Virus record (IMG/VR): IMGVR_UViG_3300021197_000337 | Span: 1-31,088 of that record | From: a virus | Direction: 5' to 3' (one strand) | Length of the DNA stretch: 31,088 nt | Shown here: piece by piece, positions 235-25,682 of the stretch | How positions within the stretch are numbered: the first letter of the stretch is position 1 | How the letters are laid out: every line of letters starts with the position of its first letter | Notes under the pieces: model-generated | The model's database searches: none | Told to the model about the DNA's origin: nothing | Seen by the model: only the letters and a program-made list of their open reading frames with translations | Made by a program: the position numbers and the translations under genes

Positions 235-1788
235 ATGTCAAATGCAATTGTCAAAAACCTTAACTTCGGTGACGAAGCTAGAGGTAATGTATTTAAAGGT
301 ATAACTAAACTTACACAAGCTGTTAGCTCCACACTTGGAGCTAGCGGTAAGTGTGTAATGCTAGAAGATGCCACAGGAAAACCAGTTATAACAAAAGATG
401 GTGTTACCGTAGCAGATTCTATTGTACTAAGAGATCCAGTAGAAAACATGGGCGCTACACTTATAAAAGAAGCCGCTCGTAAAACAGTAAAAGAAGCAGG
501 TGATGGTACAACCACTGCTACAATATTAGCTCATGCTATTTTAGAAGAAGCTTATAAAGTTTCTGATAAAACTAATTCTAGAGAACTTAAAAATGGAATT
601 AACAAAGCTGTGCAACAAGTTGTTGAATATTTAGAATCTATATCAGTACCTGTTACTGGTAACATGATAGATCAAATAGCTACAATATCAACAAACAATG
701 ATAAAGAATTAGGAGAAATAATTGCTAATGCTTTTAGATCCGTAGATAACACAGGTGTTGTTATGATGGAAGTTTCTGCATCAGGTAAAACTGAAATAGA
801 AGTTATTGAAGGAGTTCAATACGATAAAGGATTAACAAATTCTCATTTTGTAACAAACAAGCAGAATAAAACTGCAGAATTAGACAACCCATTAGTATTG
901 CTAGTTGAATCACCTATTGAAACAATTAGGCAAATTCAATCAGTGCTAGAGTATGTAATAAAAAACAATAAACCTTTGCTTATTATAGGCGATTTAGAAC
1001 AAGGTGTTTTATCAGCTCTAGCTATGAATAAAACGAAAGGTAATATAAAAGTAAATGTTATTGATGCTCCAACTTATGGTATCAATAAAAAACAAACATT
1101 AGATGATTTATCTTTATTAACTGGCGCAACTATTGTAAATGAAGATTTGGGTGATGATATGGATTTAATACAAATTGAATATCTTGGCACTTGTTTAAAA
1201 AGTGTTACATCACATTCAGATACAATAATACAAGTAAAAGAAACTTCTTTAGAAATACAAGATATTATTAAAGGTATTAAAAATAAATTAAAACTAGATA
1301 ACCCTTCTCATGAAGTAATTAAACTAGAAAAAAGGTTAGCTATGTTAGCTGCTAAAATAGCTGTAGTTAAAGTAGGTGCAAATTCTGAAATAGAATTAAA
1401 AGAAAAAAGCGATAGAGTTGAAGACGCTCTTTGTGCAACTAAAGCAGCTATAAAAGAAGGAATAGTTCCAGGTGGTGGAATAGCTTTAGTAAATGCATCA
1501 ATGAAATTAAACAAAATTGAAATAGGAAGTAAAGTGCTTGCAGAAGCAATATTATCTCCTTTCAAAACAATACTTAGTAATGCTGGTTTGAGTTGTGATA
1601 CTCCAACTAAAGCTAATCAAGGTATTGATGTAGTTACAGGGAATATGGTAAATATGATTGAAGCTGGAATTATAGATCCACTGTTGGTTACTAAAAGCGC
1701 ATTGCAAAACGCAGCTTCAGTAGCAACAACAATATTATCAACCGATTGTGTAATCAATAATTTAAGAATAGATGAAGGCAATAGGTAG
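235..1788 (+). CDS. groEL: GroEL-like chaperonin (Hsp60), phage-encoded
   Basis: 517 residues, clearly a group I chaperonin. The equatorial ATP-site motifs are present: ITKDGVTVA (52-60, with D55 matching E. coli D52), GDGTTTATILA (89-99, D90 matching D87), RVEDALCATKAA (394-405, D397 matching catalytic D398) and VPGGGIAL (411-418). The C-terminal DPLLVTKSALQNAASVA (481-497) is also diagnostic. It is about 30 residues shorter than E. coli GroEL: the C-terminus stops at EGNR with no Gly-Gly-Met tail, and the segment after NAG (449-451) is shortened. The family folds proteins inside an ATP-driven ring capped by GroES. Next to virion genes it most likely folds phage structural proteins. The GroES-like gene follows and overlaps it by 17 bases, the reverse of the usual bacterial groES-groEL order. 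Confidence 0.95.
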   Translation: MSNAIVKNLNFGDEARGNVFKGITKLTQAVSSTLGASGKCVMLEDATGKPVITKDGVTVADSIVLRDPVENMGATLIKEAARKTVKEAGDGTTTATILAHAILEEAYKVSDKTNSRELKNGINKAVQQVVEYLESISVPVTGNMIDQIATISTNNDKELGEIIANAFRSVDNTGVVMMEVSASGKTEIEVIEGVQYDKGLTNSHFVTNKQNKTAELDNPLVLLVESPIETIRQIQSVLEYVIKNNKPLLIIGDLEQGVLSALAMNKTKGNIKVNVIDAPTYGINKKQTLDDLSLLTGATIVNEDLGDDMDLIQIEYLGTCLKSVTSHSDTIIQVKETSLEIQDIIKGIKNKLKLDNPSHEVIKLEKRLAMLAAKIAVVKVGANSEIELKEKSDRVEDALCATKAAIKEGIVPGGGIALVNASMKLNKIEIGSKVLAEAILSPFKTILSNAGLSCDTPTKANQGIDVVTGNMVNMIEAGIIDPLLVTKSALQNAASVATTILSTDCVINNLRIDEGNR

Positions 1789-2032
1789 AAATTTAATCAT
1801 AGAAAAAACAAAAGAAGGAACCACTAAAACTAAAGGTGGTTTACTTCTTGCAGAAACTCATAGAGATGACATTAGATATGTAAAAGCTAAAGTTGTTTCA
1901 ATAGGTGAAGAAATTAAAGGAATAGACAAAGGTTCTGAAATATTTTACGATAGACACGCTGGTCATAAAATAGAAATTGACAAACAGCCTTATCATGTTA
2001 TAAAAGCTCAAGATGTTGTTGTAGTGTTATGA
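1772..2032 (+). CDS. groES: GroES-like co-chaperonin (Cpn10)
   Basis: 86 residues, against about 97 for bacterial GroES. It starts MKAIGRNLIIEKTKEG, matching the first beta strands of the Cpn10 fold. A mobile loop with KTKGGLLLAET (20-30) stands where GroES has the GGIVL contact for GroEL. It ends QPYHVIKAQDVVVVL, like the GroES terminus (ESDILAIVEA). Between VVSIGEEI and GIDKGSEIFY it lacks about eight residues that form the roof hairpin in E. coli GroES; phage T4 gp31 is known to lack this roof too. The ATG lies inside the end of the GroEL gene (17-base overlap), which suggests coupled translation. Its partner should be the GroEL-like protein upstream, although binding to host GroEL is also possible. 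Confidence 0.88.
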   Translation: MKAIGRNLIIEKTKEGTTKTKGGLLLAETHRDDIRYVKAKVVSIGEEIKGIDKGSEIFYDRHAGHKIEIDKQPYHVIKAQDVVVVL

Positions 2033-2473: not shown

Positions 2474-2854
2474 ATGGGATTATTTAGTAGAAGAAATAAA
2501 AGAAGAAGAGACGCTTCTAGAGCTATACGTAGTATTACAGGAGGTATGTTAGGTGGTAACTCACAACAAAATTATCAAGACGATGTTATGTCTAGTCTTG
2601 AAAATATAACAGAACAACTAGGTAGTATTGGCGCAACTAGTCCTGAACAAACTGAGGTAGCAAGTCAAGCAGCAGCAGGAGGTTCTGGTGGTGGAGTTGC
2701 TGACGCTACACAAGCTGCAATGGTAGATCCAACAGAAGTTCAAGAATCAATGATGGGTGATACTAACGCATTAGATTCAGTAAACGCTACAAGCGCATTA
2801 AACACCTTAAAAAAATATAAAGGTAGTTGTAAAATGAAAAGAAAAAACAAATAA
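2474..2854 (+). CDS. Unknown small protein, basic ends and Gly/Ala-rich middle
   Basis: 126 residues. The N-terminus is strongly basic (MGLFSRRNKRRRDASRAIR), followed by GGMLGGN, an acidic/glutamine-rich helical stretch, and a low-complexity QAAAGGSGGGVADATQAA segment (about 65-82). The C-terminus is again basic (KKYKGSCKMKRKNK). This design resembles small accessory virion proteins of phages in which a hydrophobic or glycine-rich segment follows a basic head, but no family is recognised. It begins one base after the preceding stop and opens the run of small charged proteins that extends to 5534. Confidence 0.5.
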   Translation: MGLFSRRNKRRRDASRAIRSITGGMLGGNSQQNYQDDVMSSLENITEQLGSIGATSPEQTEVASQAAAGGSGGGVADATQAAMVDPTEVQESMMGDTNALDSVNATSALNTLKKYKGSCKMKRKNK

Positions 2855-2864
2855 AAAATAAATT

Positions 2865-3086
2865 ATGGCACATCACGGAAAATACGATCCTTCAATGGAA
2901 AAATTAAAACCTGGAACTAAAGTAGGTATAGTAGGCGAATCTCATGTTTGGGACGGACCATTAAACCAAGAAGGTAGAGCTCACGGAGAAGGTTCAAGCT
3001 CAGGTATAACGGGTATGGAAGTATTAAAAGCACCATCAATGTATAAAGCTGGTCCTATATCTACAATAGCTAAAGTATTTAAATAA
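2865..3086 (+). CDS. Unknown small protein (73 aa)
   Basis: 73 residues beginning MAHHGKYDPSMEKLKPG. It is rich in glycine, histidine and serine, with HGEGSSSGITGMEVLKAPSM in the middle, and ends in IAKVFK. It has no Cys pair, membrane segment or catalytic motif. An A-rich leader (AAAAAATAAATT) precedes the ATG. Its stop is immediately followed by the next gene's ATG with no gap, so the two are likely translated together. Function unknown; it belongs to the cluster of small accessory proteins. Confidence 0.45.
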   Translation: MAHHGKYDPSMEKLKPGTKVGIVGESHVWDGPLNQEGRAHGEGSSSGITGMEVLKAPSMYKAGPISTIAKVFK

Positions 3087-3287
3087 ATGAGATCTCCATT
3101 TTATAAAGAAGGATTCCCTGAAATAAAACCAGAGAATAAAGGTAAGTTTACAGCATGGGCTAAAAAGAACGGTTTTAAAGACGCTTGTTCTGCTGCATCA
3201 TCTGTAATGTCAAATAAAAATAAATATAGTGAAGAGGTTGTTAAAATGGCTAACTACGCTAATAACTTCGGTTGTAAAAATAAATAA
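3087..3287 (+). CDS. Small helical protein with N-terminal RSPF motif
   Basis: 66 residues starting MRSPFYKEGFPE. The body, GKFTAWAKKNGFKDACSAAS (19-38) then SSVMSNKNKYSEEVVKMANYANNFG (38-62), looks like a compact three-helix unit. From memory this helical pattern (FTAWAKK...VMSNK..YS..VVK.ANFA.NFG) recurs in small proteins of many phages, but I know no function for it. It carries the first of the Ser-Pro-Phe motifs shared by the neighbouring small proteins. ATG directly follows the previous stop. Confidence 0.6.
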   Translation: MRSPFYKEGFPEIKPENKGKFTAWAKKNGFKDACSAASSVMSNKNKYSEEVVKMANYANNFGCKNK

Positions 3288-3288
3288 T

Positions 3289-3507
3289 ATGAGAAGCAAA
3301 TCACCATTCAGACAAGATAAATGTTCTACCGCTTGGGCCAAGTGGGAAGAAGGTTATAAAAAAGTTGGTAAAGATAAACCATCAGAAAAATTTAAAGGCA
3401 AGTCAGAAATGCAAGTTGAAAGAGGGGAGTTTGAATGTAGAGATGGTAAAATAAAATTGAAAAAAACTGACGACGCAGAACAACCAATAGAGAAAAAACC
3501 AGAATAA
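3289..3507 (+). CDS. Small charged protein with KSPF motif (72 aa)
   Basis: I place the start at the ATG at 3289, two bases after the preceding stop. A longer in-frame version from 3229 would lie inside the previous gene and read unlike a real N-terminus. The product begins MRSKSPFRQDKCSTAWAKW and is dominated by Lys, Glu and Asp afterwards (EKFKGKSEMQVERGEFECRD). A CRDGKIKLKK stretch leads to an acidic/basic tail. It has two cysteines (residues 12 and about 48) but no zinc-site pattern. Function unknown. The N-terminal SPF motif and helical TAWAKWEEGYKK link it to its neighbours. Confidence 0.55.
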   Translation: MRSKSPFRQDKCSTAWAKWEEGYKKVGKDKPSEKFKGKSEMQVERGEFECRDGKIKLKKTDDAEQPIEKKPE

Positions 3508-3508
3508 T

Positions 3509-3709
3509 ATGGCATTTAAAATAAGCAGTCCATTTCTTATGGAAAATAAGCAATGTGAATCAATGAGAAAACAAGCAGCTAAACTTGCTAAAGAAATTCA
3601 AGCAATGCGAGCTGAAAGTAAAAAAACAGGCAAGGTAACTAACTGGGACGCTAAAGCGGACGAGTTATCTAGAGTAAGAGAAAGAATAGCCGAACAATGC
3701 AAAAAATAA
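3509..3709 (+). CDS. Small helical protein with SSPF motif (66 aa)
   Basis: 66 residues beginning MAFKISSPFLMENKQCESM. After the SSPF motif the rest is an almost continuous amphipathic, coiled-coil-like helix (AAKLAKEIQAMRAESKK, then KADELSRVRERIAEQCKK). Two cysteines (16 and 64) flank the helical hairpin. The opening MAFK..SPF resembles the opening MAFKLNNPPYMVDN of the metallopeptidase-like gene at 6222. Function unknown. It starts one base after the previous stop. Confidence 0.55.
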   Translation: MAFKISSPFLMENKQCESMRKQAAKLAKEIQAMRAESKKTGKVTNWDAKADELSRVRERIAEQCKK

Positions 3710-3720
3710 AAAAATAAATT

Positions 3721-4416
3721 ATGAGTTCACCATTTCAAAGAGCGTTTAGCGGGAAAAGTCCATTAAACAAACACGGTAAATTAGAAAAGAAACTAAAAAA
3801 AGTAAAAGAAGGAAAAATAGGATCTGAAGGTCAAGGCGGTATAGATTATGAATTACAATCTCAGCTAGAAGAACAAATCAAAGTTGCTAAAGCTAATCAT
3901 AGCAAACAACAAGATAATAGTATTGTTGAAGAAGAAAGAGACAACAGTCAGATGGATGCTTCTATGGCTAACTACGGTGTAAGCGATAAAAAAAAAACTA
4001 AAAGCGTAGCTCAAATGAGATCTCCTCTTAATGGATCTTATGAAAGTGGTGGTAGAGGTGAAATATATGTTTCTTCAGTAGGAGCTATACAACAAGCTGT
4101 TGGTTCTGTTCAAAATGCTGTAGATTCTTACATGAATGAAGATCCTCAACATAAAGCAGATAGAATAGCTGGTAGAATTGATAGTAGAAAAAATAGATTA
4201 TATCACGGTGAAGATATAATGAATGATGATAGTTTAACAGACGAAGAAAAAGAAAATAAATTAGCAGAAGTAAATCAAAGAAGTTATTCTATGAAAACGC
4301 AAGAATTAATAGATAGAGCTGCTACTTCTCAAAAAGAAGCTGATGAATTTGAGCTTTCAGAAATTGAAAGACTTAAAAAAGAAAACGAAGCTTACAAGAA
4401 AAAATTTAATATTTAA
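3721..4416 (+). CDS. Two-part charged protein with SSPF, KSPL and RSPL motifs
   Basis: 231 residues. It opens MSSPFQRAFSGKSPLNKHGK, followed by a Lys/Glu-rich helical segment (21-95). At residue 99 a second MRSPLNGSYESGGRGEIYVS appears, followed by a further helical region with SVGAIQQAVGSVQNAVDSYM and a charged coiled-coil C-terminus (LSEIERLKKENEAYKKK). The internal M99 looks exactly like the start of another SPF-type protein, so the gene may be a fusion of two, or may use an internal start at 4015. No enzymatic motif. Probably an accessory virion or assembly protein, judged only by location. Confidence 0.55.
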   Translation: MSSPFQRAFSGKSPLNKHGKLEKKLKKVKEGKIGSEGQGGIDYELQSQLEEQIKVAKANHSKQQDNSIVEEERDNSQMDASMANYGVSDKKKTKSVAQMRSPLNGSYESGGRGEIYVSSVGAIQQAVGSVQNAVDSYMNEDPQHKADRIAGRIDSRKNRLYHGEDIMNDDSLTDEEKENKLAEVNQRSYSMKTQELIDRAATSQKEADEFELSEIERLKKENEAYKKKFNI

Positions 4417-4419
4417 ACA

Positions 4420-5106
4420 ATGGGACACAAAGGACATTACGGACAATACACAGGTAACGCTAAATGGTCAAAAAATCACGCTGACACAAGAGTTACTAAA
4501 TCAAACTATAAAGCTTCTGAAAGAGATGATGCTGCTCACATTGATTATCTTAAAAGAGATATCGATTATGACAACAAACACGGTCATAGTGATGAAAACA
4601 TGACTGCTGATGAAAAGCATATATCTAAATTAGCAGGTGACATGAAGTACGATAAAAAACATCATGGTTCGCCAGCACACCGTAGTGGTGATTATAACGA
4701 TCATGATATGGGAGCTAAATATTGGAAAGCTCATAAACAAACAATGCACGGTATAAAAGTTCACGGAGGACCAAACATGAACTCACCAGTTAAAAATGAA
4801 GGTGATAGAAAAGCACATAAAATGAGTAATAGTGAATACGAAGCTCACTTACAAAGTCCAAGAGGAAAACAAGAACACGGTTCACCAGCTCAACAAAAAG
4901 GAGGTCGTGGTGATCACAGTACAATGACTGATGGTGAGTATTCAAGACACTTGGCAAGTCCAAGAGGAAAAAAAGAACATGGTTCTCCAACTCAAAAAAA
5001 AGGCTTATGGGCTAATATTCACGCAAAAAGAAAAAGAGGAGAATCACCAGCTAAACCTGGAGACAAAGATTATCCAACTGAAAAAGCATTAAAAGATTCA
5101 CAATAA
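4420..5106 (+). CDS. Histidine-rich protein with two 27-residue repeats
   Basis: 228 residues, unusually rich in His, Lys, Gly, Asp and Ser. Two near-identical units occur at residues 135-161 and 169-195, sharing the pattern M(S/T)-x2-EY-x2-HL-x-SPRGK-x-EHGSP-x-QxKG. Further HGSP, NSP and ESP motifs occur at 82-85, 121-123 and 208-210. The protein is very hydrophilic and probably disordered in part. The histidines could bind metal, but no defined site is visible. The same Ser-Pro theme links it to the genes on both sides. The alternative ORF at 4343-4603 in another frame is its shadow. Function unknown; possibly an internal virion or capsid-associated protein. Confidence 0.6.
   Translation: MGHKGHYGQYTGNAKWSKNHADTRVTKSNYKASERDDAAHIDYLKRDIDYDNKHGHSDENMTADEKHISKLAGDMKYDKKHHGSPAHRSGDYNDHDMGAKYWKAHKQTMHGIKVHGGPNMNSPVKNEGDRKAHKMSNSEYEAHLQSPRGKQEHGSPAQQKGGRGDHSTMTDGEYSRHLASPRGKKEHGSPTQKKGLWANIHAKRKRGESPAKPGDKDYPTEKALKDSQ
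4822..5004 (+). repeat. Tandem 81-base coding repeat in the His-rich gene
   Basis: Two 27-codon units at 4822-4902 and 4924-5004, separated by 21 bases. They share the AAGTCCAAGAGGAAAA core, followed by GAACA(C/T)GGTTC. DNA as well as protein similarity suggests a recent internal duplication. Confidence 0.7.
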
Positions 5107-5131
5107 CAATAACAATAACCAATAACAATAA
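5101..5131 (+). repeat. Five CAATAA hexamers in a gene leader
   Basis: Five copies of CAATAA at 5101, 5107, 5113, 5120 and 5126; one extra C breaks the phase after the third copy. The first copy contains the stop of the His-rich gene, and the run ends eight bases before the next ATG. A G-free, A/C-rich, unstructured leader would suit ribosome entry without a Shine-Dalgarno box. Confidence 0.7.
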
Positions 5132-5138
5132 CAAAACT

Positions 5139-5534
5139 ATGTACGATAAAGGAGCATTACCAAACCTAAACAAGGGTTACAAAAGCGAATCAGTTAAAAC
5201 TGAAAGATCAAACTTAATGAATGATAATCCTATAGCTAAAGACGCTAGTGGAGGAAGATCATGGATGTCTAAACACTCACAATCAAGAATGGGTGGCTCA
5301 CCTTTAGCAAATACTAAAGAAGAATTAGACAAAATGAAAAAGGATAAAAACAAAAAACTTGAAAATAAAGCAAGAGGTGTATCAGAAGAAGTAGCAAAAA
5401 GAAGAAAAGCAATGGAAACATTAGCTCCAAAAATGCATCACGAAGGTTCACCTAATAAAATGCATGATGGCAAAAAATTTGAAGATGAAGGGTTTATGGA
5501 TTCTCATTTTAAATCAGGAAAGCCAAGAAAATAA
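5139..5534 (+). CDS. Charged small protein with GSPL and GSPN motifs
   Basis: 131 residues, starting MYDKGALPNLNKGYKSES. It is dominated by Lys, Glu, Asp, Met and Ser, with a central coiled-coil-like stretch (TKEELDKMKKDKNKKLENKA) and GGSPLAN and EGSPNKMHDGKK motifs. It is probably largely disordered or helical, with no membrane segment or active site. It is the last of the Ser-Pro-motif proteins in this run and is preceded by the CAATAA leader. Function unknown; likely an accessory particle or assembly protein by context. Confidence 0.55.
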   Translation: MYDKGALPNLNKGYKSESVKTERSNLMNDNPIAKDASGGRSWMSKHSQSRMGGSPLANTKEELDKMKKDKNKKLENKARGVSEEVAKRRKAMETLAPKMHHEGSPNKMHDGKKFEDEGFMDSHFKSGKPRK

Positions 5535-5563
5535 CAGTAGAGAACTGTAAAAAAACTCGCCAA

Positions 5564-5597
5564 CAAAAACAATAACAAAATCAAAAACAAAAACAAA
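5564..5597 (+). promoter_or_regulatory. A/C-rich G-free leader of the 152-aa gene
   Basis: The last bases before the ATG read CAAAAACAATAACAAAATCAAAAACAAAAACAAA, with no G or Shine-Dalgarno box. An unstructured leader like this suggests efficient initiation and a highly expressed product. It resembles the CAATAA run at 5101. Confidence 0.4.
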
Positions 5598-6056
5598 ATG
5601 GCAAAATTTATTAAATTTAAAATTTCTAACGCAACTACATTAGCTGCTGGAGGAGATTATGCAAGAGACGTATTAGTAAACGTTGACGACATCGAAAACG
5701 TAGCTGACGCTGTGAACGGTGGAGTTTACACTGCAATCGTAACATTAAAAGGAATTGTAGGATTAGGAGTTGGTCATGCTAATGACGCTACTGTCCCACC
5801 TGACACTATTGGTGGAAGAATACTTACTTTAAGAGTATCTACTTCTGCTACTGCTAATGTTAACCCAACTGCAATCACAGTTAGCCGTAACATGCCTTCA
5901 CAAGCAATTGTAAGAGCATTAACTGCTAACCCAGGTGGAATTTCTTCACTATGTTCATTAAGTGTTGATGGAAATGGAGTTGTAGCTGCTCAAGGTGGTA
6001 CTGCTGCTCAAATGTTCTGGTCAAGCGCTGTATTTACATCTGATAGCACTTTATAA
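5598..6056 (+). CDS. Probable small virion structural protein
   Basis: 152 residues beginning MAKFIKFKISNATTLAAGG. The sequence is low in charge and rich in Ala, Val, Thr, Gly and Asn, typical of beta-rich phage decoration or fibre-type proteins. VLVNVDDIENVADAVNGGVY (26-45), the alternating hydrophobics of TAIVTLKGIVGL (46-57) and GGRILTLRV support beta strands. It closes with AAQGGTAAQMFWSSAVFTSD. I do not recognise a specific family. The A/C-rich leader and more biased codons (AAC, GAC, ATC) suggest strong expression. A capsid decoration or head-fibre protein is the best guess from composition alone. Confidence 0.5.
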   Translation: MAKFIKFKISNATTLAAGGDYARDVLVNVDDIENVADAVNGGVYTAIVTLKGIVGLGVGHANDATVPPDTIGGRILTLRVSTSATANVNPTAITVSRNMPSQAIVRALTANPGGISSLCSLSVDGNGVVAAQGGTAAQMFWSSAVFTSDSTL

Positions 6057-6221: not shown

Positions 6222-6539
6222 ATGGCTTTTAAATTAAACAATCCACCTTATATGGTAGATAATCTTAGTACTCCTGTTTATCATGTAGATATGGAAGATG
6301 GTGTGATGGGTAAAGCTAATAACAATGGAACTATTATTATAAATCAAAACACAAATCCTGACGATATACCAAAAGTAATTGAACACGAAAAAGTTCATAT
6401 AGATCAAATGAAAAGAGGTGATCTAGATTACGATAACGACAACGTATATTGGAAAGGTAAAAAATACTCAAGAGCTGATATGGCAGAAGGTGCTAAGAAC
6501 TTACCATGGGAAGCTGAAGCATATAAAAAAGTAAAATGA
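6222..6539 (+). CDS. Putative zinc metallopeptidase-like protein (HEKVH)
   Basis: 105 residues, MAFKLNNPPYMVDN at the start. It contains VIEHEKVHIDQM (53-64): H55-E56-x-x-H59 is the HExxH zincin signature, and the glutamic acids in PWEAEAY (97, 99) are candidates for the third zinc ligand of a gluzincin. Between them lies DLDYDNDNVYWKGKKYSRAD (68-87). The family logic predicts a zinc-bound water attacking a peptide bond, but a small phage protein of this kind could also be inactive. It lies directly before the holin (ATGA overlap), so a role in particle maturation or lysis can be proposed but not shown. It has no signal peptide. Confidence 0.6.
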   Translation: MAFKLNNPPYMVDNLSTPVYHVDMEDGVMGKANNNGTIIINQNTNPDDIPKVIEHEKVHIDQMKRGDLDYDNDNVYWKGKKYSRADMAEGAKNLPWEAEAYKKVK

Positions 6540-8691: not shown

Positions 8692-8899
8692 GGTTGCAAA
8701 AGAACCTATAGTAGATTCAGACGATGATATATCAGCTGATAGACTTAAAAATGCAGCTGCTACAAAAAAGCTAGCTATATTTGATGCTTTTGAAATATTA
8801 AGTAGAATACAAACAGAGCAAGATATATTAGATGAAAAACCTAAAGAAGTTAAAAAAGAAACTACGTTTCGTGGTTTTGCTGAAGGGAGATCTAAATAA
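8624..8899 (+). CDS. Possible terminase small subunit or conserved pre-terminase protein
   Basis: 91 residues, mostly helical: LSIIRAGQVAVEELIKVAK, DDDISADRLKNAAATKKLAI and FDAFEILSRIQTEQDILDE, then a basic tail TFRGFAEGRSK. The 68-base overlap with the preceding gene is large; a TTG at 8645 would shorten it, but the ATG at 8624 works. The position immediately before the large terminase gene, the size and the helix-rich make-up fit a small terminase subunit, which binds DNA and passes it to TerL. No helix-turn-helix is obvious, so the call rests mainly on position. Confidence 0.45.
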   Translation: MKTKETKLSIIRAGQVAVEELIKVAKEPIVDSDDDISADRLKNAAATKKLAIFDAFEILSRIQTEQDILDEKPKEVKKETTFRGFAEGRSK

Positions 8900-11109
8900 T
8901 GTATAAGCAAACTTTATATAAAATATTAAAAGACCATATAAAACCTAAAGTTCTTAAACGAATGAATAGGTTTAAAAAATGGGAGTATGGATATAACGAA
9001 GATCATGATATAATTGTTATATCTAGAACAGGTCAGATTGGTGATATTTATGAGATACAAAATCTTAAAATAGCTTTACCTAAACAAAACGATGTTTACG
9101 AATTTGAAGAAAACAAGTGGACTAGGTTTGATTATCCAAAACAATTACAAAGAATAAAAACAGTATTTGATTGGAGAGAATATCCTGATGATTTTAAAGA
9201 AATGTGGTATGACTACATTAATCTTGAATTTAAAAGGCGTGAAGAAGGTTTTTGGTATATAAATAAAGATGTGCCTATATACCTAACTGGTACTCATTAC
9301 ATGTATTTGCAATGGTCAAAAATTGATGTTGGCCAACCAGACTTTAGAGAATCAAACAGATTATTTTTTATATTTTGGGAAGCTTGTAGAGCAGATGACA
9401 GAAGTTACGGTATGTGTTATTTAAAAAATAGACGATCTGGTTTTTCATTTATGGCTTCTGGTGAAACTGTTAATATGGCTACTATATCTAGTGACGCTCG
9501 TTTTGGTATATTATCTAAATCAGGTGCTGATGCTAAAAAAATGTTTACAGACAAAGTAGTACCAATATCAGTTAACTACCCTTTCTTTTTCAAACCAATA
9601 CAAGACGGTATGGATCGACCTAAAACAGAACTAGCATATCGTGTGCCAGCTTCTAAGTTTACAAGAAGATCTATAGTGTCTACAGATAAACAAGAAGATC
9701 TTACAGGACTTGACACAACTATTGACTGGAAAAACACTGGAGACAATGCTTATGATGGTGAAAAACTAAGATTATTAGTACATGATGAAAGTGGTAAGTG
9801 GGAAAGACCTAATGATATACAAAACAATTGGCGTGTTACTAAAACAACATTAAGACTAGGTTCTAGAATTATAGGTAAATGTATGATGGGATCAACGTCA
9901 AATGCTTTAGATAAAGGTGGTAGAAATTTTAAAAAATTATATGATGACTCAGATGTTACGAAAAGAAATGCAAATGGACAAACCCGTTCAGGACTCTATT
10001 CTTTGTTCATACCTATGGAATGGAACTACGAAGGATACATTGATTCTTATGGGTATCCTGTTTTCGAAACCCCATCAAAACAAGTGTATGGGCCTCATGG
10101 AACGCCAATTAAAATCGGGGTCATTGAATACTGGGATAATGAAGTAGAAGGTCTTAAAGATGATCAAGACGGATTAAATGAATTTTACAGACAGTTTCCT
10201 CGTACAACTAAACATGCTTTTAGAGATGAATCTAAAATGTCTTTATTTAATCTAACTAAGATCTATCAACAAATAGATTTTAATGAAGATTTAAAAAATT
10301 CACTATCAGTTACGCAGGGTAATTTTCAATGGGAAAATGGTGAAAAAGATACTAGAGTAATATTTGCACCAAGTAAGCAAGGAAGATTTTATATAACTTG
10401 GGTGCCACCAGTACACTTACAAAACAAAAGATTTATTAGACATAGTGTTAGTTACCCAGGTAATGAACATTGTGGAGCTTTTGGTTGTGATCCATATGAC
10501 ATATCAGGTACAGTAGATAAAAGAGGTTCTAACGGTTCTTTACATGGTTTAACTAAATTTAGCATGGAAGAAGTACCACCAAATCATTTTTTCTTAGAAT
10601 ATATCGCTCGTCCACAAACAGCTGAAATATTTTTTGAAGATGTACTTATGGCTTGTGTATTTTATGGCATGCCAATATTAGCAGAAAATAATAAACCTAG
10701 ATTACTCTATTATTTTAAACGTAGAGGTTATAGAGGTTTTGCAATGAATAGACCTGATAAAAAAAGAAATAAATTATCTGTAACAGAAAGAGAAATTGGT
10801 GGAATACCAAACTCTAGTGAAGATATAAAGCAAGCACACGCTTCAGCTATTGAAACTTACATTGAACATTTTGTAGGTTTAAAAGAAACGGGATATGGAG
10901 ATATGTATTTTCAAAGAACGTTAGAAGATTGGTCTCAATTTAATATAAATAATAGAACATCTCATGATGCTTCTATTAGTTCTGGACTTGCGTTAATGGC
11001 CTGTAACAAACATAGATATGCGCCAGCAAATAAAATACAATTGAAACCAGTTGATCTAGGTATAAAAAAATACAATAACCAAGGAACTACATCAAAAATT
11101 ATAAATTAA
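8899..11109 (+). CDS. terL: Terminase large subunit (packaging ATPase-nuclease)
   Basis: 736 residues. It powers DNA packaging into the prohead and cuts the concatemer. The ATPase half has a degenerate Walker A at 175-184 (LKNRRSGFSF, in place of GxxxxGK[ST]) and a clear Walker B, RLLVHDE (291-297, D296/E297). MMGSTSNALDKGG (329-341) matches the coupling motif III. The nuclease half (RNase H-like) has GCDPYDISG with D531 and D534, the strand-rich GMPILAENNKPRLLYYF, and a final HDASIS with D690 as candidate metal ligands. The length is greater than the usual 450-600 because of an N-terminal extension of about 150 residues. The gene starts right at the previous stop and overlaps the portal start (TAATG), the classic terL-portal order. 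Confidence 0.88.
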   Translation: MYKQTLYKILKDHIKPKVLKRMNRFKKWEYGYNEDHDIIVISRTGQIGDIYEIQNLKIALPKQNDVYEFEENKWTRFDYPKQLQRIKTVFDWREYPDDFKEMWYDYINLEFKRREEGFWYINKDVPIYLTGTHYMYLQWSKIDVGQPDFRESNRLFFIFWEACRADDRSYGMCYLKNRRSGFSFMASGETVNMATISSDARFGILSKSGADAKKMFTDKVVPISVNYPFFFKPIQDGMDRPKTELAYRVPASKFTRRSIVSTDKQEDLTGLDTTIDWKNTGDNAYDGEKLRLLVHDESGKWERPNDIQNNWRVTKTTLRLGSRIIGKCMMGSTSNALDKGGRNFKKLYDDSDVTKRNANGQTRSGLYSLFIPMEWNYEGYIDSYGYPVFETPSKQVYGPHGTPIKIGVIEYWDNEVEGLKDDQDGLNEFYRQFPRTTKHAFRDESKMSLFNLTKIYQQIDFNEDLKNSLSVTQGNFQWENGEKDTRVIFAPSKQGRFYITWVPPVHLQNKRFIRHSVSYPGNEHCGAFGCDPYDISGTVDKRGSNGSLHGLTKFSMEEVPPNHFFLEYIARPQTAEIFFEDVLMACVFYGMPILAENNKPRLLYYFKRRGYRGFAMNRPDKKRNKLSVTEREIGGIPNSSEDIKQAHASAIETYIEHFVGLKETGYGDMYFQRTLEDWSQFNINNRTSHDASISSGLALMACNKHRYAPANKIQLKPVDLGIKKYNNQGTTSKIIN

Positions 11110-13490
11110 TGAATATATATACTAATACCAATAGTGCTTTCCCTAGTCAAGTAGTGAGTGATGCTGAAAAAGCAAGTATTGAATATGGAAGTCAAGTTGC
11201 AATGGCTATTGAATATGAGTGGTTTCGTTCTGGAAGAACTCAAGGTAATAGATATTTAACTAACTGGAATCAGTTCCATGAATTAAGACTATATGCTCGT
11301 GGTGAACAAAGCATACAAAAATACAAAGATGAGTTATCTATTAATGGTGACTTGTCTTATCTTAATTTAGACTGGCAACCAGTTCCTATATTATCTAAAT
11401 TTGTAGATATAGTTGTAAACGGTATATCATCTAAGTCATATGATATAAAAGCTTATGCTCAAGATCCAGAGTCTGTAAAAGCAAGAACAAAATATGCTTC
11501 TAAAATACAAGAAGATATGATGGCTAGAGAGTATTTAGATGGATTAAAAGAAAGTCTGGGTATTAATTTATACCAAAGCATGGATCCGTCTAGTTTACCT
11601 GAAACTCCAGAAGAATTAGAGTTGCATATGCAGCTTAGTTACAAGCAGTCAATTGAAATAGCAGAAGAAGAAGCTATATCATCTGTATTAGCTCAAAACA
11701 AATATGATCTTACTAGACGTAGATTAAATATGGATTTAGCTACAATAGGTATAGCAGCTGCTAAAACCAACTTTAATACAGCAGAAGGAATTACAGTTGA
11801 CTATGTTGATCCTGCTTATATGGTTTATTCATATACTGAAGATCCAAACTTTGAAAACATATACTATGTAGGTGAAGTTAAAAACATAACTTTACCAGAA
11901 TTAAAAAAAGAATTTCCAAACATTAGTAAAGACGAATTAGAGCGCATACAAAAAATGCCAGGTAATCGTCAATACTTAACTGGTTGGAGTGGTTATGATG
12001 AAAACACTGTGCAAGTAATGTATTTTGAATACAAAACTTATCACAATCAAGTTTTTAAAATAAAACATACAGATCAAGGATTAATGAAAGCTTTAGAAAA
12101 AGATGATTCATTTAATCCACCAGAAAATGATAGTTTTGAAAGAGTTTCTAGATCTATAGAAGTCTTATATACTGGTGCTAAAGTTTTAGGTACAGACACA
12201 ATGTTAGACTGGAGATTAGCTGAAAACATGTCAAGACCTATGGCAGATACAACTAAAGTAGAAATGAATTATTCTATTTGTGCTCCTAGAATGTATAAAG
12301 GTAGAATAGAATCACTTGTAAGTAAGTGTGTTGGTTTTGCTGACATGATACAGTTAACTCATTTAAAATTGCAACAAGTGTTATCTAAAATGGTTCCTGA
12401 TGGTGTTTATTTAGATATGGACGGTTTAGCAGAAGTTGATTTAGGTAATGGCACAAACTATAATCCAGCAGAAGCATTAAACATGTATTTCCAAACTGGT
12501 AGTATTGTTGGTAGATCATTAACTCAAGACGGTGATATGAACGCGGGTAAAGTACCTGTTCAAGAATTAAGTTCTAGTTCTGGTCAAGGTAAAATACAAA
12601 GTTTAATACAGACGTATCAATATTATTTACAAATGATACGTGATGTGACCGGACTTAATGAAGCAAGAGATGGTAGCACACCAGACAAACAAACATTAGT
12701 AGGTTTACAAAAAATGGCTGCTAACGCTTCTAATGTTGCTACGCGACATATCAAACAAGGAAGTTTATACGTAACATTAAGAATAGCTGAAAATATTGCT
12801 CTTAAAATAGCAGATGCTTTAGAATTTCCACTAACAGCTGAATCTCTTTCTAACTCTGTAAGTAATTATAATGTCAACACTTTACAGGAAATTAGTAATT
12901 TAAACTTACATGACTTTGGTATATTCTTAGAATTAGAACCAGACGAAGAAGAGCAAGCTCAATTAGAAAACAATATACAAATGGCTTTACAGCAAGGTGG
13001 TATTGATTTAGAAGACGCTATAGATTTAAGACAAATAAAAAATCTTAAGTTAGCTAATCAAATGCTTAAAATAAAACGTAAAGCTAAAGGTAAGCAAGAC
13101 CAAGAAAATCAAATACAACAAAGTCAAGCACAAGCACAAGCTCAAGCTAGTGCAGCTGAAAAAATTGCAATGTCTGAAGTTCAAAAACAAGAAGCTATAT
13201 CAGGTTCTAAAGTACAGTTTGAACAAGCTAGCAATCAAATGGAAATACAACGTATGCAATTAGCTGCTCAAATAGAGCAACAAAAAATGCAAACACAATT
13301 TCAGTTTGATATGGAATTAAAGAAAATGGACATGGAAGCAATAGGAAAGAAAGAACAAATGATCGAAGATCGCAAAGATAAACGTATTAAAATGGAAGGT
13401 ACTCAACAGAGTCAAATGATAGATCAAAGAAAAAATGATTTATTACCAATAGATTTTGAACAACAGAATCAACAAGCTCCAGTAGCTTAA
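11109..13490 (+). CDS. Portal protein
   Basis: 793 residues. The portal forms the twelve-subunit ring at one capsid vertex through which DNA enters and leaves. The N-terminal half is a mixed alpha/beta body containing LSKFVDIVVNGISSKSYDIK. The diagnostic region is the stem/crown helix MIRDVTGLNEARDGSTPDKQ (509-528), followed by TLVGLQKMAANASNVATRHI. The C-terminal 130 residues are a Gln/Ala/Met-rich coiled coil (QAQAQAQASAAEKIAMSEVQ...) matching the long barrel helices seen in some podovirus portals. Its place between the large terminase and a scaffold-like gene agrees. Family assignment is by pattern and order. Confidence 0.82.
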   Translation: MNIYTNTNSAFPSQVVSDAEKASIEYGSQVAMAIEYEWFRSGRTQGNRYLTNWNQFHELRLYARGEQSIQKYKDELSINGDLSYLNLDWQPVPILSKFVDIVVNGISSKSYDIKAYAQDPESVKARTKYASKIQEDMMAREYLDGLKESLGINLYQSMDPSSLPETPEELELHMQLSYKQSIEIAEEEAISSVLAQNKYDLTRRRLNMDLATIGIAAAKTNFNTAEGITVDYVDPAYMVYSYTEDPNFENIYYVGEVKNITLPELKKEFPNISKDELERIQKMPGNRQYLTGWSGYDENTVQVMYFEYKTYHNQVFKIKHTDQGLMKALEKDDSFNPPENDSFERVSRSIEVLYTGAKVLGTDTMLDWRLAENMSRPMADTTKVEMNYSICAPRMYKGRIESLVSKCVGFADMIQLTHLKLQQVLSKMVPDGVYLDMDGLAEVDLGNGTNYNPAEALNMYFQTGSIVGRSLTQDGDMNAGKVPVQELSSSSGQGKIQSLIQTYQYYLQMIRDVTGLNEARDGSTPDKQTLVGLQKMAANASNVATRHIKQGSLYVTLRIAENIALKIADALEFPLTAESLSNSVSNYNVNTLQEISNLNLHDFGIFLELEPDEEEQAQLENNIQMALQQGGIDLEDAIDLRQIKNLKLANQMLKIKRKAKGKQDQENQIQQSQAQAQAQASAAEKIAMSEVQKQEAISGSKVQFEQASNQMEIQRMQLAAQIEQQKMQTQFQFDMELKKMDMEAIGKKEQMIEDRKDKRIKMEGTQQSQMIDQRKNDLLPIDFEQQNQQAPVA

Positions 13491-13517: not shown

Positions 13518-14738
13518 ATGTCAGAAGTAAAAACAAATGAACCTGTTAAACAGGAAGGTGACTTTAAAGTAAAGTCTAAAAAACCTAAACAATTAGGTAA
13601 CAAAAAACAAGAACAAGACATTGTTAAGGTTAATTTAAAAGAACCTTTAGTAGAAATACCAAACGATGTTATTAAGGTTAAAATACCTAACGAACCAGTT
13701 AAAAAAGAAACAGATGCCATTCAAATCGGAGAAACAAAGGAAGTACCTGTGGAAGAACCATCCGGAGATAGCGCAGAGGTGGGAGAACCTATACAAGAGT
13801 CCAACGAGACTACTGAAGGGTTTTCTCCAATCAAAGAAGTAACTGAACAAGAAGTTAAAAAAGTAGAAGCAGAAGTTAAAGAAGCTTTAAGAGACGAAAA
13901 AGTTTTAGGTAAAGAATTACCTGAAAATATTGAAAAGCTAGTTTCATTTATGGAAGAAACAGGTGGAACAATAGAAGATTACACTAGATTAAATGCTGAT
14001 TATACTAACGTAGATGAAAATACTTTATTAAAAGAATACTATAAAAAGGCTAAGCCACATTTAGATTCTGAAGAAATAGATTTTATAATGGAAGATAATT
14101 TCCATTACGATACAGATATTGACGAAGAGCGTGACGTCAAAAAGAAAAAACTCGCTAAAAAAGAAGAGGTTGCAAAAGCTAAAAACTTTTTAGAGGAAAC
14201 GAAAAAGAAATATTACGACGAAATCAAGTTGAGACCCGGCGTAACTCAGGACCAACAAAAAGCTATGGATTTTTTCAACCGCTACAATAAGCAGCAAGAA
14301 CAAGCTGAGCAACAACATGATGTTTTTCAAAAAAATACTAAAGAATTGTTTAATGAAGATTTCGAAGGTTTCGATATTAAAGTTGGAGAAAAAAGATTTA
14401 AGTATAATGTTAAAGACGTTAATAAGGTTGCCGAAAACCAATCAAACATTAACAACCTAGTTAAGAAGTTCTTAGATAAAGATGGTAATGTTAGTGATAC
14501 TCAAGGTTATCACAAGGCTATATATGCCGCTGACAATGTAGATAAAATTGCATCTCATTTTTATGAGCAAGGAAAAGCAGACGCTGTAAAAGACGTGGTG
14601 AATAAATCTAAAAATTTAACATCAGTAAAAGCAAGGACTTCACAAGGTGACGTTTTTGTAAACGGCTTGAAAGTTAAAGCAATTTCTGGTGCAGATTCTA
14701 CAAAACTAAAAATCAAAACTAGAAAATTTAACAATTAA
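13518..14738 (+). CDS. Probable head scaffolding protein
   Basis: 406 residues between the portal and major capsid genes, the standard slot for scaffold. It is highly charged, Lys/Glu-rich and probably extended. The N-terminal 110 residues are low complexity (VPVEEPSGDSAEVGEPIQES). A central helical block contains LVSFMEETGGTIEDYTRLNADY (143-164) and KPHLDSEEIDFIMEDNF (181-197), then KKKKLAKKEEVAKAKNFLEE and a glutamine-rich coil (NKQQEQAEQQHDVFQKN). The C-terminus is basic (LKIKTRKFNN), as in scaffolds that bind capsid subunits. Scaffold directs shell assembly and is then removed. No protease domain is visible. Two short stretches are more GC-rich than the surroundings. Confidence 0.65.
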   Translation: MSEVKTNEPVKQEGDFKVKSKKPKQLGNKKQEQDIVKVNLKEPLVEIPNDVIKVKIPNEPVKKETDAIQIGETKEVPVEEPSGDSAEVGEPIQESNETTEGFSPIKEVTEQEVKKVEAEVKEALRDEKVLGKELPENIEKLVSFMEETGGTIEDYTRLNADYTNVDENTLLKEYYKKAKPHLDSEEIDFIMEDNFHYDTDIDEERDVKKKKLAKKEEVAKAKNFLEETKKKYYDEIKLRPGVTQDQQKAMDFFNRYNKQQEQAEQQHDVFQKNTKELFNEDFEGFDIKVGEKRFKYNVKDVNKVAENQSNINNLVKKFLDKDGNVSDTQGYHKAIYAADNVDKIASHFYEQGKADAVKDVVNKSKNLTSVKARTSQGDVFVNGLKVKAISGADSTKLKIKTRKFNN

Positions 14739-14751
14739 AAATTAAACAATT

Positions 14752-16203
14752 ATGAGTTTAAATCCACAATTTGGTAGTATTGTACCAAGTCCTATTCAAA
14801 CTCCATCACCTTCAGCTTATTTAGCTTTTAACGGTGGGGCGAATGACTTTGCACAACAATATTTACCAGAAATTTACGAACAAGAAGTAGAGCGTTATGG
14901 AAACAGAACGTTATCTGGCTTCTTAAGAATGGTAGGCGCTGAAATGCCTATGACATCTGATCAAGTAATTTGGTCAGAACAAAACAGATTACACATATCT
15001 TACGATGGATGTGCTTTAGCTGCTGCTGGAGCAAACAATGCATCTGTAGTAACAATTGGTGGTGGTGCTACTGCTATCAACGTTATATCTATTAATGATA
15101 CTGTTGTCCTTCTAGACCCTAATTCAGGATCTGAAGCAAAAGGTATTGTTATAGCTAGAGCTGCTGGAGCTGGTGGTGCTGGAACTGTTACAGTTCAGCC
15201 ATTTGCTAACGCAACTTTCCCTAACCAAGGAATTGGTGCTGCTGGAATTAAGATGTTTGTATACGGTTCTGATTACACAAAAGGAACAACTATTGGAGCA
15301 GGAGTAGGAAACTCTGCTGCTAGAATATCTATTGATCCTTCTTTCACACAATTTTCTAACTCACCAGTGATCATAAGAGATCAGTACGTTGTTACTGGAT
15401 CTGATATGGCTCAAATCGGTTGGGTTGAAGTTGCTACTGAAGACGGTGCTTCTGGATACCTTTGGTATTTAAAAGCTGAGTCTGAAACTAGATTACGTTT
15501 CGAAGATTACTTAGAAATGGCAATGGTTGAAGGTGAATTAAACGTAAACGCTGCAGCTGCTGCAAATTACGTACAAGCTAACTTACCAGGTACACAAGGT
15601 TTATTTGCTGCTATTAGAGCAAGAGGTAACGTGCAAGTAGGATTTACTGCTGCTGCTGGACTTGATGAGTTTGATGCAATACTTAAAAACCTAGATACTC
15701 AAGGAGCTATTGAAGAAAACATGTTATTCTTACAGAGACAAACATCTCTTGATTTTGACGATATGTTAGCTTCTATCTCTGGTGGTTTCGCTGGTGGTAC
15801 TGCTTTCGGTTTATTCGAAAATTCAGAAGAAATGGCTTTAAATCTTGGTTTCTCAGGATTTAGAAGAGGTTCTTATGATTTCTATAAAACTGACTGGAAA
15901 TACTTAAATGATGCTTCCACTCGTGGTGCAATCGTTGGTGTTAATTCAATCGAAGGTGTATTAGTTCCTGCTGGAACATCTACAGTTTATGATCAAATCT
16001 TAGGTACTAACATTAGAAGACCTTTCTTACACGTAAGATATAGAGCTTCTCAAGGTGACGACAGAAGAATGAAATCATGGTTAACTGGTGGTGCTGGTGG
16101 AGCAATGACTTCTACGCTTGATGCAATGCAAGTTAACTTCCTATCGGAAAGATGTTTAGTAACGCAAGCTGCTAACAACTTTGTATTATTCCAAGGAATC
16201 TAA
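14752..16203 (+). CDS. Major capsid protein
   Basis: 483 residues, with composition (Ala, Gly, Asn, Thr) and length fitting an HK97-fold major capsid protein. The N-terminus MSLNPQFGSIVPSPIQTPSP is followed by a long helical segment QQYLPEIYEQEVERYGNRT, resembling an N-arm and first helix. Later DDMLASISGGFAGGTAFGLF and HVRYRASQGDDRRMKSWLTG lie in the C-terminal half, which ends AANNFVLFQGI. Gene order after portal and scaffold, codons rich in GCT/GGT/AAC, and a terminator just downstream all support a highly made capsid protein. It is likely folded by the phage chaperonin (inference). The small minus-strand ORF at 15124-15351 is antisense noise. Confidence 0.8.
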   Translation: MSLNPQFGSIVPSPIQTPSPSAYLAFNGGANDFAQQYLPEIYEQEVERYGNRTLSGFLRMVGAEMPMTSDQVIWSEQNRLHISYDGCALAAAGANNASVVTIGGGATAINVISINDTVVLLDPNSGSEAKGIVIARAAGAGGAGTVTVQPFANATFPNQGIGAAGIKMFVYGSDYTKGTTIGAGVGNSAARISIDPSFTQFSNSPVIIRDQYVVTGSDMAQIGWVEVATEDGASGYLWYLKAESETRLRFEDYLEMAMVEGELNVNAAAAANYVQANLPGTQGLFAAIRARGNVQVGFTAAAGLDEFDAILKNLDTQGAIEENMLFLQRQTSLDFDDMLASISGGFAGGTAFGLFENSEEMALNLGFSGFRRGSYDFYKTDWKYLNDASTRGAIVGVNSIEGVLVPAGTSTVYDQILGTNIRRPFLHVRYRASQGDDRRMKSWLTGGAGGAMTSTLDAMQVNFLSERCLVTQAANNFVLFQGI

Positions 16204-25013: not shown

Positions 25014-25682
25014 ATGAGTATATTAATAGGTAGCGCCATAAGTGCTGGAGCTAGTATAATCGGTGGAATTATCGGTGGCGGTAAAGCTAGAAGAGCTAAG
25101 AGAAGAGCTGCGAGAAAGCTTAAAAAAATGAACCGCAAGATGGAAGAGCTAGAAGCAAACAGACAGGATATAATAAATCCCTATGCAGATGTTACTAATT
25201 TAAGTAGCATGATGAGCAATCCTATGGCTAATTTATCTGTAGCTACTCAAGCTGCTGAAATGGCAATAGAGCAAACTGATATAGCTTTAGCTAATACATT
25301 AGATACTATTAGACAAACAGGTGGCGGATCTGGTGGAGCTACAGCTTTAGCTCAAGCTGCGTTACAAGCTAAGAAAGGTGTTGCCGCAGATATAGAATCT
25401 CAAGAAAAAATGAATGAAGACAAGAGAGCTGCAGGCGAACAAAGACTACAAGATGCTCAAGTACAAGAAGCTAAACGTATGCAAGATGCTGATGTTATGG
25501 GACAAAAATTTGTTTATGGTGAAACAGATAGAAGAGAAATGCAACAACTAAATAGATTACAAGGTCAAATAGATCATATGCAAGGAGTTAAAGCACAAGC
25601 AAGTGCTGATCAAACCGCTGCGTTAACAGGAGCAATATCAGGAGTAGCAGGAGCTGCAAGTTCTTATTTTGGTAATAAATAA
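25014..25682 (+). CDS. Probable internal virion / DNA-ejection protein
   Basis: 222 residues. The N-terminus is a glycine-rich hydrophobic stretch (ILIGSAISAGASIIGGIIGG, 3-22) followed at once by a very basic segment (KARRAKRRAARKLKKMNRKM). The rest is Ala/Gln-rich and helical (NPYADVTNLSSMMSNPMANL, LANTLDTIRQTGGGSGGATA, ALAQAALQAKKGVAADIESQ) and ends LTGAISGVAGAASSYFGNK with another small-residue hydrophobic patch. A membrane-active N-terminal helix plus long Ala/Gln helices after tail genes fit a T7 gp14-like ejection protein. Homology is not proven, but composition and position agree. Confidence 0.6.
   Translation: MSILIGSAISAGASIIGGIIGGGKARRAKRRAARKLKKMNRKMEELEANRQDIINPYADVTNLSSMMSNPMANLSVATQAAEMAIEQTDIALANTLDTIRQTGGGSGGATALAQAALQAKKGVAADIESQEKMNEDKRAAGEQRLQDAQVQEAKRMQDADVMGQKFVYGETDRREMQQLNRLQGQIDHMQGVKAQASADQTAALTGAISGVAGAASSYFGNK

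Follow-up and report, generated by a model that had tools for sequence, protein, structure and literature searches.

The window, by which is meant the whole 31,088-base virus record that was analysed, opens with genes for GroEL and GroES (235..2032; GroES identified by homology in relatives), followed by a run of small genes, a holin, the terminase large subunit and portal (together spanning 8899..13490) and capsid-type genes. GroEL and GroES lie 5' of the array of small genes considered here, while the terminase and portal genes anchor its 3' side; these, like all the array genes described below, are on the forward strand. Terminases encoded on 80 IMG/VR contigs share 75-94% identity with that of the window, against 62% for a Manatee Spring phage and about 44% for Flavobacterium elemo phages; Cellulophaga, Maribacter and Tenacibaculum phages are also among the matches. 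The window fits the Group 2 Flavobacteriaceae phages of Nishimura et al. 2017 (PMC5332604), uncultured phages of marine Bacteroidota that have a phage GroEL and whose structural proteins are phi38:1-like. Matches in the genome_contigs set suggest that the host belongs to the Bacteroidota, and the assignment is limited to that phylum, as a suggestion only, because the matches fall in metagenome bins of assorted labels, among which Bacteroidota are numerous while archaea and Aliivibrio also occur. Among the structural genes, the capsid and portal proteins of relatives (window 14752-16203 and 11109-13490) often start with M[SA]LxPQFGxIxPSQ and with NSPFPSQVVSDAEK or AFPSQ, the common PSQ of which may be due to chance or to a shared assembly contact. 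Further downstream, 25014-25682 encodes a Gly-rich small protein, thought to be of the ejection type, 5' of a giant gene; a PDB sequence search with this protein returned nothing meaningful.

Six consecutive genes form the array. The first (3087..3287) encodes a 66-aa protein in which the tag MRSPF precedes a three-helix GKFT module (FAM12), and the second (3289..3507) a 72-aa protein with the tag MRSKSPF, belonging to a family in which 19 of 19 members are tagged (FAM20). These are followed by a 66-aa helical protein with the tag MAFKISSPF (3509..3709; FAM23, 14 of 15 members tagged, with heads that vary among relatives) and a 231-aa protein with the double head MSSPFQRAFSGKSPLNK (N-terminal motif MSSPFQRAFSGKSPL) and an internal RSPL (3721..4416), whose relatives share the head MSSPFQKxFxxKSPL. 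The 228-aa product of 4420..5106 is rich in His, Gly and Lys and has seven internal SP motifs (HGSPA, NSPV, QSPRGK, HGSPA, ASPRGK, HGSPT and ESPA) and a C-terminal GLWANIHAKRKRGESPAKPGDKDYP module, and the last protein (5139..5534, 131 aa) has internal GSPL and GSPN and lacks an N-terminal tag. All of the SP motifs listed in the original prediction are present. The array is preceded by a 126-aa protein (2474..2854; MGLFSRRNKRR...) that is untagged in the window, the same body bearing MSNSPLNLFGSRRRRK in relatives, and by a conserved small array protein of 73 aa that is normally untagged (2865..3086; FAM10, 1 of 99 members tagged). On its other side, a metallopeptidase-like protein with an HExxH motif (6222..6539) has the degenerate head MAFKLNNPPY, in place of which many relatives have MAFK[IM]xSPF. 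An A-rich leader is repeated before two genes (window 5563-5598 and about 5100-5138) and may provide strong initiation of translation, as is seen in Bacteroidota. Comparison of the array proteins with PHROGs and Pfam gave no informative family, and tblastn of ORF 5139-5534 against phage records gave no match. Close relatives of ORF 3721-4416 occur in one contig only, so that its product appears to change fast.

The array contains 14 SP dipeptides, against 2.17 expected from composition-preserving shuffles, none of which (0/20,000) reached this number; the test is slightly conservative, as it left out the one SP of ORF 3289-3507. Removing ORF 4420-5106, which itself has 7 where 0.79 are expected, leaves 7 against 1.39 (2/20,000 shuffles). 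The reversed dipeptide PS does not occur in the array, and there is no excess of SP in the remainder of the window (18 observed, 23.5 expected). At related loci, SP[FLIMV] is found 359 times within residues 2-25 of small ORFs, against 33 in shuffles. In order that relatives were not counted repeatedly, the first 25 residues were removed, the bodies were clustered, and one member was taken per family across about 230 related virus loci; 45 of the 146 array families then have an SP[F/L/I/M/V] start, where 2.4 are expected (SD 1.5, maximum 7 in 200 shuffles). Families encoded 5' of the array are tagged in 5 of 62 cases (1.0 expected) and those 3' of it in 0 of 30 (0.6 expected). As the motif had been chosen after looking at the sequences, an unbiased scan of all dipeptides was added, in which SP ranks first within residues 2-25 (73 against 20.3, z 12.4), followed by PL and PF. 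Beyond residue 25 the family-level count is at chance (120 against 121), with the exception of one large family, FAM0. At least half of the members are tagged in 13 of 61 multi-member families, and 45 of 199 rare families have a tagged member. Composition as the cause of the motifs is rejected by the shuffles and by the unbiased scan, and the motif thus passes both the comparison with composition-matched random sequence and that of conservation in relatives on which the original prediction depended.

That prediction saw one motif throughout the array, and in doing so merged two patterns: an SP[FL] head at the N-terminus of numerous families, and GSP[A/L] repeated internally in ORF 4420-5106 and its family. 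The former accounts for the heads of ORFs 3087-3287, 3289-3507, 3509-3709 and 3721-4416; ORFs 4420-5106 and 5139-5534 have no tag at the start. The family of ORF 4420-5106 is FAM0, an SP-rich product of single-linkage clustering with 333 members, which was counted once in the family test and has 424 SP against 129 after residue 25. In ORF 4420-5106 these internal repeats may have a different function. With the Lys-rich proteins and 32% GC of this phage, the SPRGK and SPAK of ORF 4420-5106 and the common occurrence of SPAK in FAM0, it might be supposed that the SP motifs are SPKK-type elements that bind the minor groove of AT-rich DNA, and that the proteins are packaged DNA condensers. This is very unlikely: within the first 25 residues of small ORFs, SP is mostly followed by F or L and seldom by a basic residue (F 182, L 127, D 35, N 24, I 21, V 16, M 13, K 9), which misfits S-P-[K/R]-[K/R], and S/T-P followed by two basic residues is found neither in the tag nor, except in part (SPRGK), among the internal motifs of ORF 4420-5106. 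The reading could nevertheless apply to the internal repeats of FAM0. At the other end of the same protein, within residues 191-226, the C-terminal 28-46 aa match cyanophage and roseophage proteins. Over about 28 aa, GLWANIHAKRKRGESPAKPGDKDYP is as much as 93% identical to proteins from myoviruses of Prochlorococcus and Synechococcus; it also resembles a small roseophage protein located between the scaffold and capsid genes; by these matches it appears to be a widely shared mini-module.

The consensus of the N-terminal tag is [K/S/N]-S-P-[F/L], often in the form MAFKxxSPF or MSSPFQKxFxxKSPL. Within FAM12, SP is invariant in 18 aligned relatives while the preceding head varies in both length and sequence (MRSPF, MYSSPF, MYTSPL and MAYIQSPL); in FAM23 a single body is found with the heads MAFKISSPF, MGFKIKPFYSGSPL and MSSPFQKAFSAKSPL, and heads are likewise swapped on the same body in FAM22. 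The tag serine is encoded by TCN in 265 cases and AGY in 94, with the two types mixed within single families and in 55 of 94 loci that have at least two tags. Because serine codons mix within families and the same body bears different heads, selection acts on the tag as a peptide. These observations also bear on whether the tag is a leftover of duplication, the array members having descended from one ancestor and only their starts still being alike. The tandem arrangement and the near identity of some heads (MSSPFQKxFxxKSPL) would be accounted for in this way, yet the mixture of TCN and AGY within single families and loci would not be explained by simple DNA copying, the heads vary among orthologous bodies, and clustering without the first 25 residues places the bodies in separate families. 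Tagged proteins furthermore include modules as distinct as DUF5872, DUF6321 and an HExxH peptidase. Duplication is disfavoured by the codons and the unrelated bodies, and we regard it as improbable.

An exact search of 2.9 million viral contigs for MAFK[IM]xSPF found 61 stretches; the bodies attached to this head include the HExxH peptidase as well as modules of the DACYHKVK and RWFKEEW (DUF5872-type) kinds. In Pfam scans of tagged relatives, the L070 protein matched DUF6321 (PF19846; 41.5 bits, cut-off 28.5) and the L290 protein DUF5872 (PF19197; 53.2 bits, cut-off 27.5), while the DACYHKVK protein scored 20 bits, under the 27.5 cut-off; the array proteins of the window matched neither family. 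Tagged families are more basic than untagged ones, with a mean net charge of 0.061 against 0.024 per residue. The single AlphaFold2 model made, that of ORF 3087-3287 from 18 aligned sequences, has a mean pLDDT of 74, with values below 50 for residues 1-9 and helices at 20-27, 33-42 and 49-63; a disordered head on a folded body is therefore predicted for this protein. A Foldseek comparison of the model with the PDB gave no match at E <= 0.001. The original proposal of one short tag shared by otherwise unrelated, fast-changing neighbours is well supported by the family test, the head swaps, the serine codons and the dipeptide scan.

A protease site had been among the functions suggested for the motif, and nothing points to one. 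In T4 and phiKZ-like phages, short motifs common to unrelated head proteins reflect prohead cleavage, and a metallopeptidase gene adjoins the array, so that a prohead protease or other phage peptidase might be imagined to cut at or near SP[F/L] during head maturation. There is little likelihood of this, given that the known prohead proteases of T4 and phiKZ-like phages cut after Glu rather than at Ser-Pro-Phe, that no prohead protease was found in the window, and that SP stands at residues 3-4 of many of the proteins, where a cut would remove almost nothing.

Tagged genes are found mainly between GroEL/GroES and the holin and terminase genes, an interval that in long relatives runs from GroES to TerL. 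In the contig G004, a tagged cluster (47,055-48,727) lies directly 3' of a giant virion gene (40,040-47,053), and some other tagged ORFs of G001, G003 and G005 fall outside both places, a few of these strays probably being due to chance. G001, the contig of L140, also has an identical ORF start near each of its ends (237-386 and 62987-63136), which suggests a direct terminal repeat. No tagged member was found in the families of GroES, of the 147-aa protein that adjoins it (FAM7) or of the holin, nor in FAM2 and FAM4. The position of the array just 3' of the phage GroEL and GroES, in the window and in relatives, is what would be expected if the tag were a docking motif for some other late-phase partner, such as GroEL-GroES or the lysis or terminase machinery, with the proteins acting in the cell and having no need to enter the particle; the array metallopeptidase bearing the same head could be seen in the same light. 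Such docking is considered unlikely, as the G004 cluster is far from GroEL, tagged genes occur in contigs with no detected GroEL (L260, L283 and L295, which are fragments), relatives of some of the bodies are virion proteins, and GroEL-bearing isolates are without tags. Across Flavobacterium elemo phages, Cellulophaga phi38:1 and phi18:3, Maribacter Panino, Tenacibaculum Gundel and Manatee Spring phage there is no excess of the tag (4 against 3.7 expected), and it is therefore not needed for this type of virion in general. These related phages appear to manage without it and, since they are the nearest isolates, its gain or loss would be recent on that scale.

The virion can be approached through relatives of the tagged bodies. 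In tblastn searches of crAss-like phages the body of ORF 3087-3287 has a best E of 4e-5, and four of the five phages examined have the match in a large protein near the tail and stabilisation genes, the position of phiCrAss001 gp45. In cr128_1 the matched module is directly preceded by SPMSPF, and much of this protein is homologous to gp45 (E 1.5e-148), even though the module itself compares weakly with gp45 residues 368-432 as a single sequence (E 0.27 for that stretch). Aligned as a profile, FAM12 matches the crAss modules, gp45 included, with an hhalign probability of 98.4 and E of 6e-15. By mass spectrometry (MS) and cryo-EM, gp45 is a cargo protein (PMC10172136); the resolved regions and MS peptides that the available passages specify do not include residues 368-432. 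A second route is provided by the virion proteome of cyanophage S-CREM2, in which 35 of the 114 proteins compared were detected by MS (PMC10665884). When 430 tagged proteins, with their first 15 residues cut, were compared with these 114, four were matched and all four are within the detected 35 (chance about 0.008, or 0.03 for the three that remain without gp132). The firm matches, which are also the strongest, are gp137 (E 9e-20, 4 unique peptides) and gp160 (E 2e-19, 7); gp132 was matched through a spurious NPLP 'tag', and gp111 over a short segment (E 2e-4) by the tagged proteins L244 and L153, not by ORF 5139-5534. The MS-detected relatives have no SP tag at the start, and therefore support the bodies, not the tag. 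The T4-GC 119 protein of S-SM1 (SSM1_115; L316 1568-3055), whose gene lies close to that of the terminase small subunit, consists of the same mini-modules strung together. Packaging into the particle, as had first been suggested, gains indirect support from the relatives of several tagged bodies that occur in MS-detected virion proteins and from the tagged genes lying mainly near virion genes.

The SP tag is hence a real N-terminal peptide, maintained by selection as such, common to unrelated families and concentrated beside virion genes, and some of the same modules occur in virion-detected proteins of relatives. By analogy with the T4 capsid-targeting sequence (CTS), we infer that the array proteins are in the virion, that the tag loads them and that they are injected; this reading of the peptide, as a cargo-loading tag on virion proteins that are internal and probably injected, is given about an even chance of being correct. 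In this model the array products would be cargo of the phage particle, small and often basic, and the short, probably disordered N-terminal peptide [K/S/N]-S-P-[F/L] would act as the loading tag by binding a common procapsid partner, whether scaffold, portal or inner capsid face. Unrelated bodies would thereby be packaged alongside the DNA and would probably pass into the host. Their rapid change may follow from each having a separate task, perhaps in countering host defences or acting on the DNA of the host, while the tag would be kept because all cargo needs the same route in. Candidate partners are the portal wing, to which segments of gp45 dock in phiCrAss001 (PMC10172136), and the scaffold-like ORF 13518-14738.

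Of the known systems, crassvirus cargo protein 1 (phiCrAss001 gp45; PF25725, crAss_CARG1) carries, at residues 368-432 and immediately ahead of its portal-bound part (425-552), a segment related to the module of ORF 3087-3287. However, gp45 is a single polypeptide of 842 aa that includes membrane and portal-binding parts, whereas ORF 3087-3287 is a tagged, stand-alone protein of 66 aa without the CARG1 domain; a Pfam scan of it for this portal-binding domain found no family, and only the separate GKFT segment is common to the two. Cyanophage virion proteins (S-CREM2 gp137 and gp160; T4-GC 119) contain the same DUF6321-type and DACYHKVK modules that are found as tagged stand-alone genes in relatives of the window, but there they sit in longer proteins without the SP[FL] head, and both modules are absent from the array of the window itself. 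The SP tag goes unmentioned in the available passages on the Group 2 genomes (PMC5332604), and none is evident in phi38:1. A full-text literature search, from whose coverage subscription journals mostly fall outside, found no description of such a tag.

The closest likeness is to the internal proteins of T4, in which, as in the array families, one conserved N-terminal peptide is carried by small, diverse and otherwise unrelated bodies. The CTS peptide directs packaging, and the T4 internal proteins are injected and block host enzymes (PMC3012670, PMC12373910). T4 belongs to another phage lineage and infects another host phylum. The likeness is one of architecture; for the array proteins, packaging, cleavage and injection would be predictions from sequence. 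Somewhat short of an even chance, and so put forward tentatively, is the broader proposal that SP[F/L] is a general cargo-loading signal in a clade of uncultured marine Bacteroidota phages, CTS-like and arisen independently of that of T4, which would deliver dozens of unrelated small proteins with the DNA and allow injected effectors to be found by sequence alone. If true, it would suggest why DUF6321 and DUF5872 recur across marine phages, as these may be virion cargo. In T-even phages the signal sequence has led to many of the internal-protein genes, and those with an assigned function to date inhibit host restriction enzymes (PMC12373910). A similar tag in marine Bacteroidota phages would likewise allow a great many small proteins of unknown function, possibly delivered into the cell with the DNA, to be picked out by sequence.
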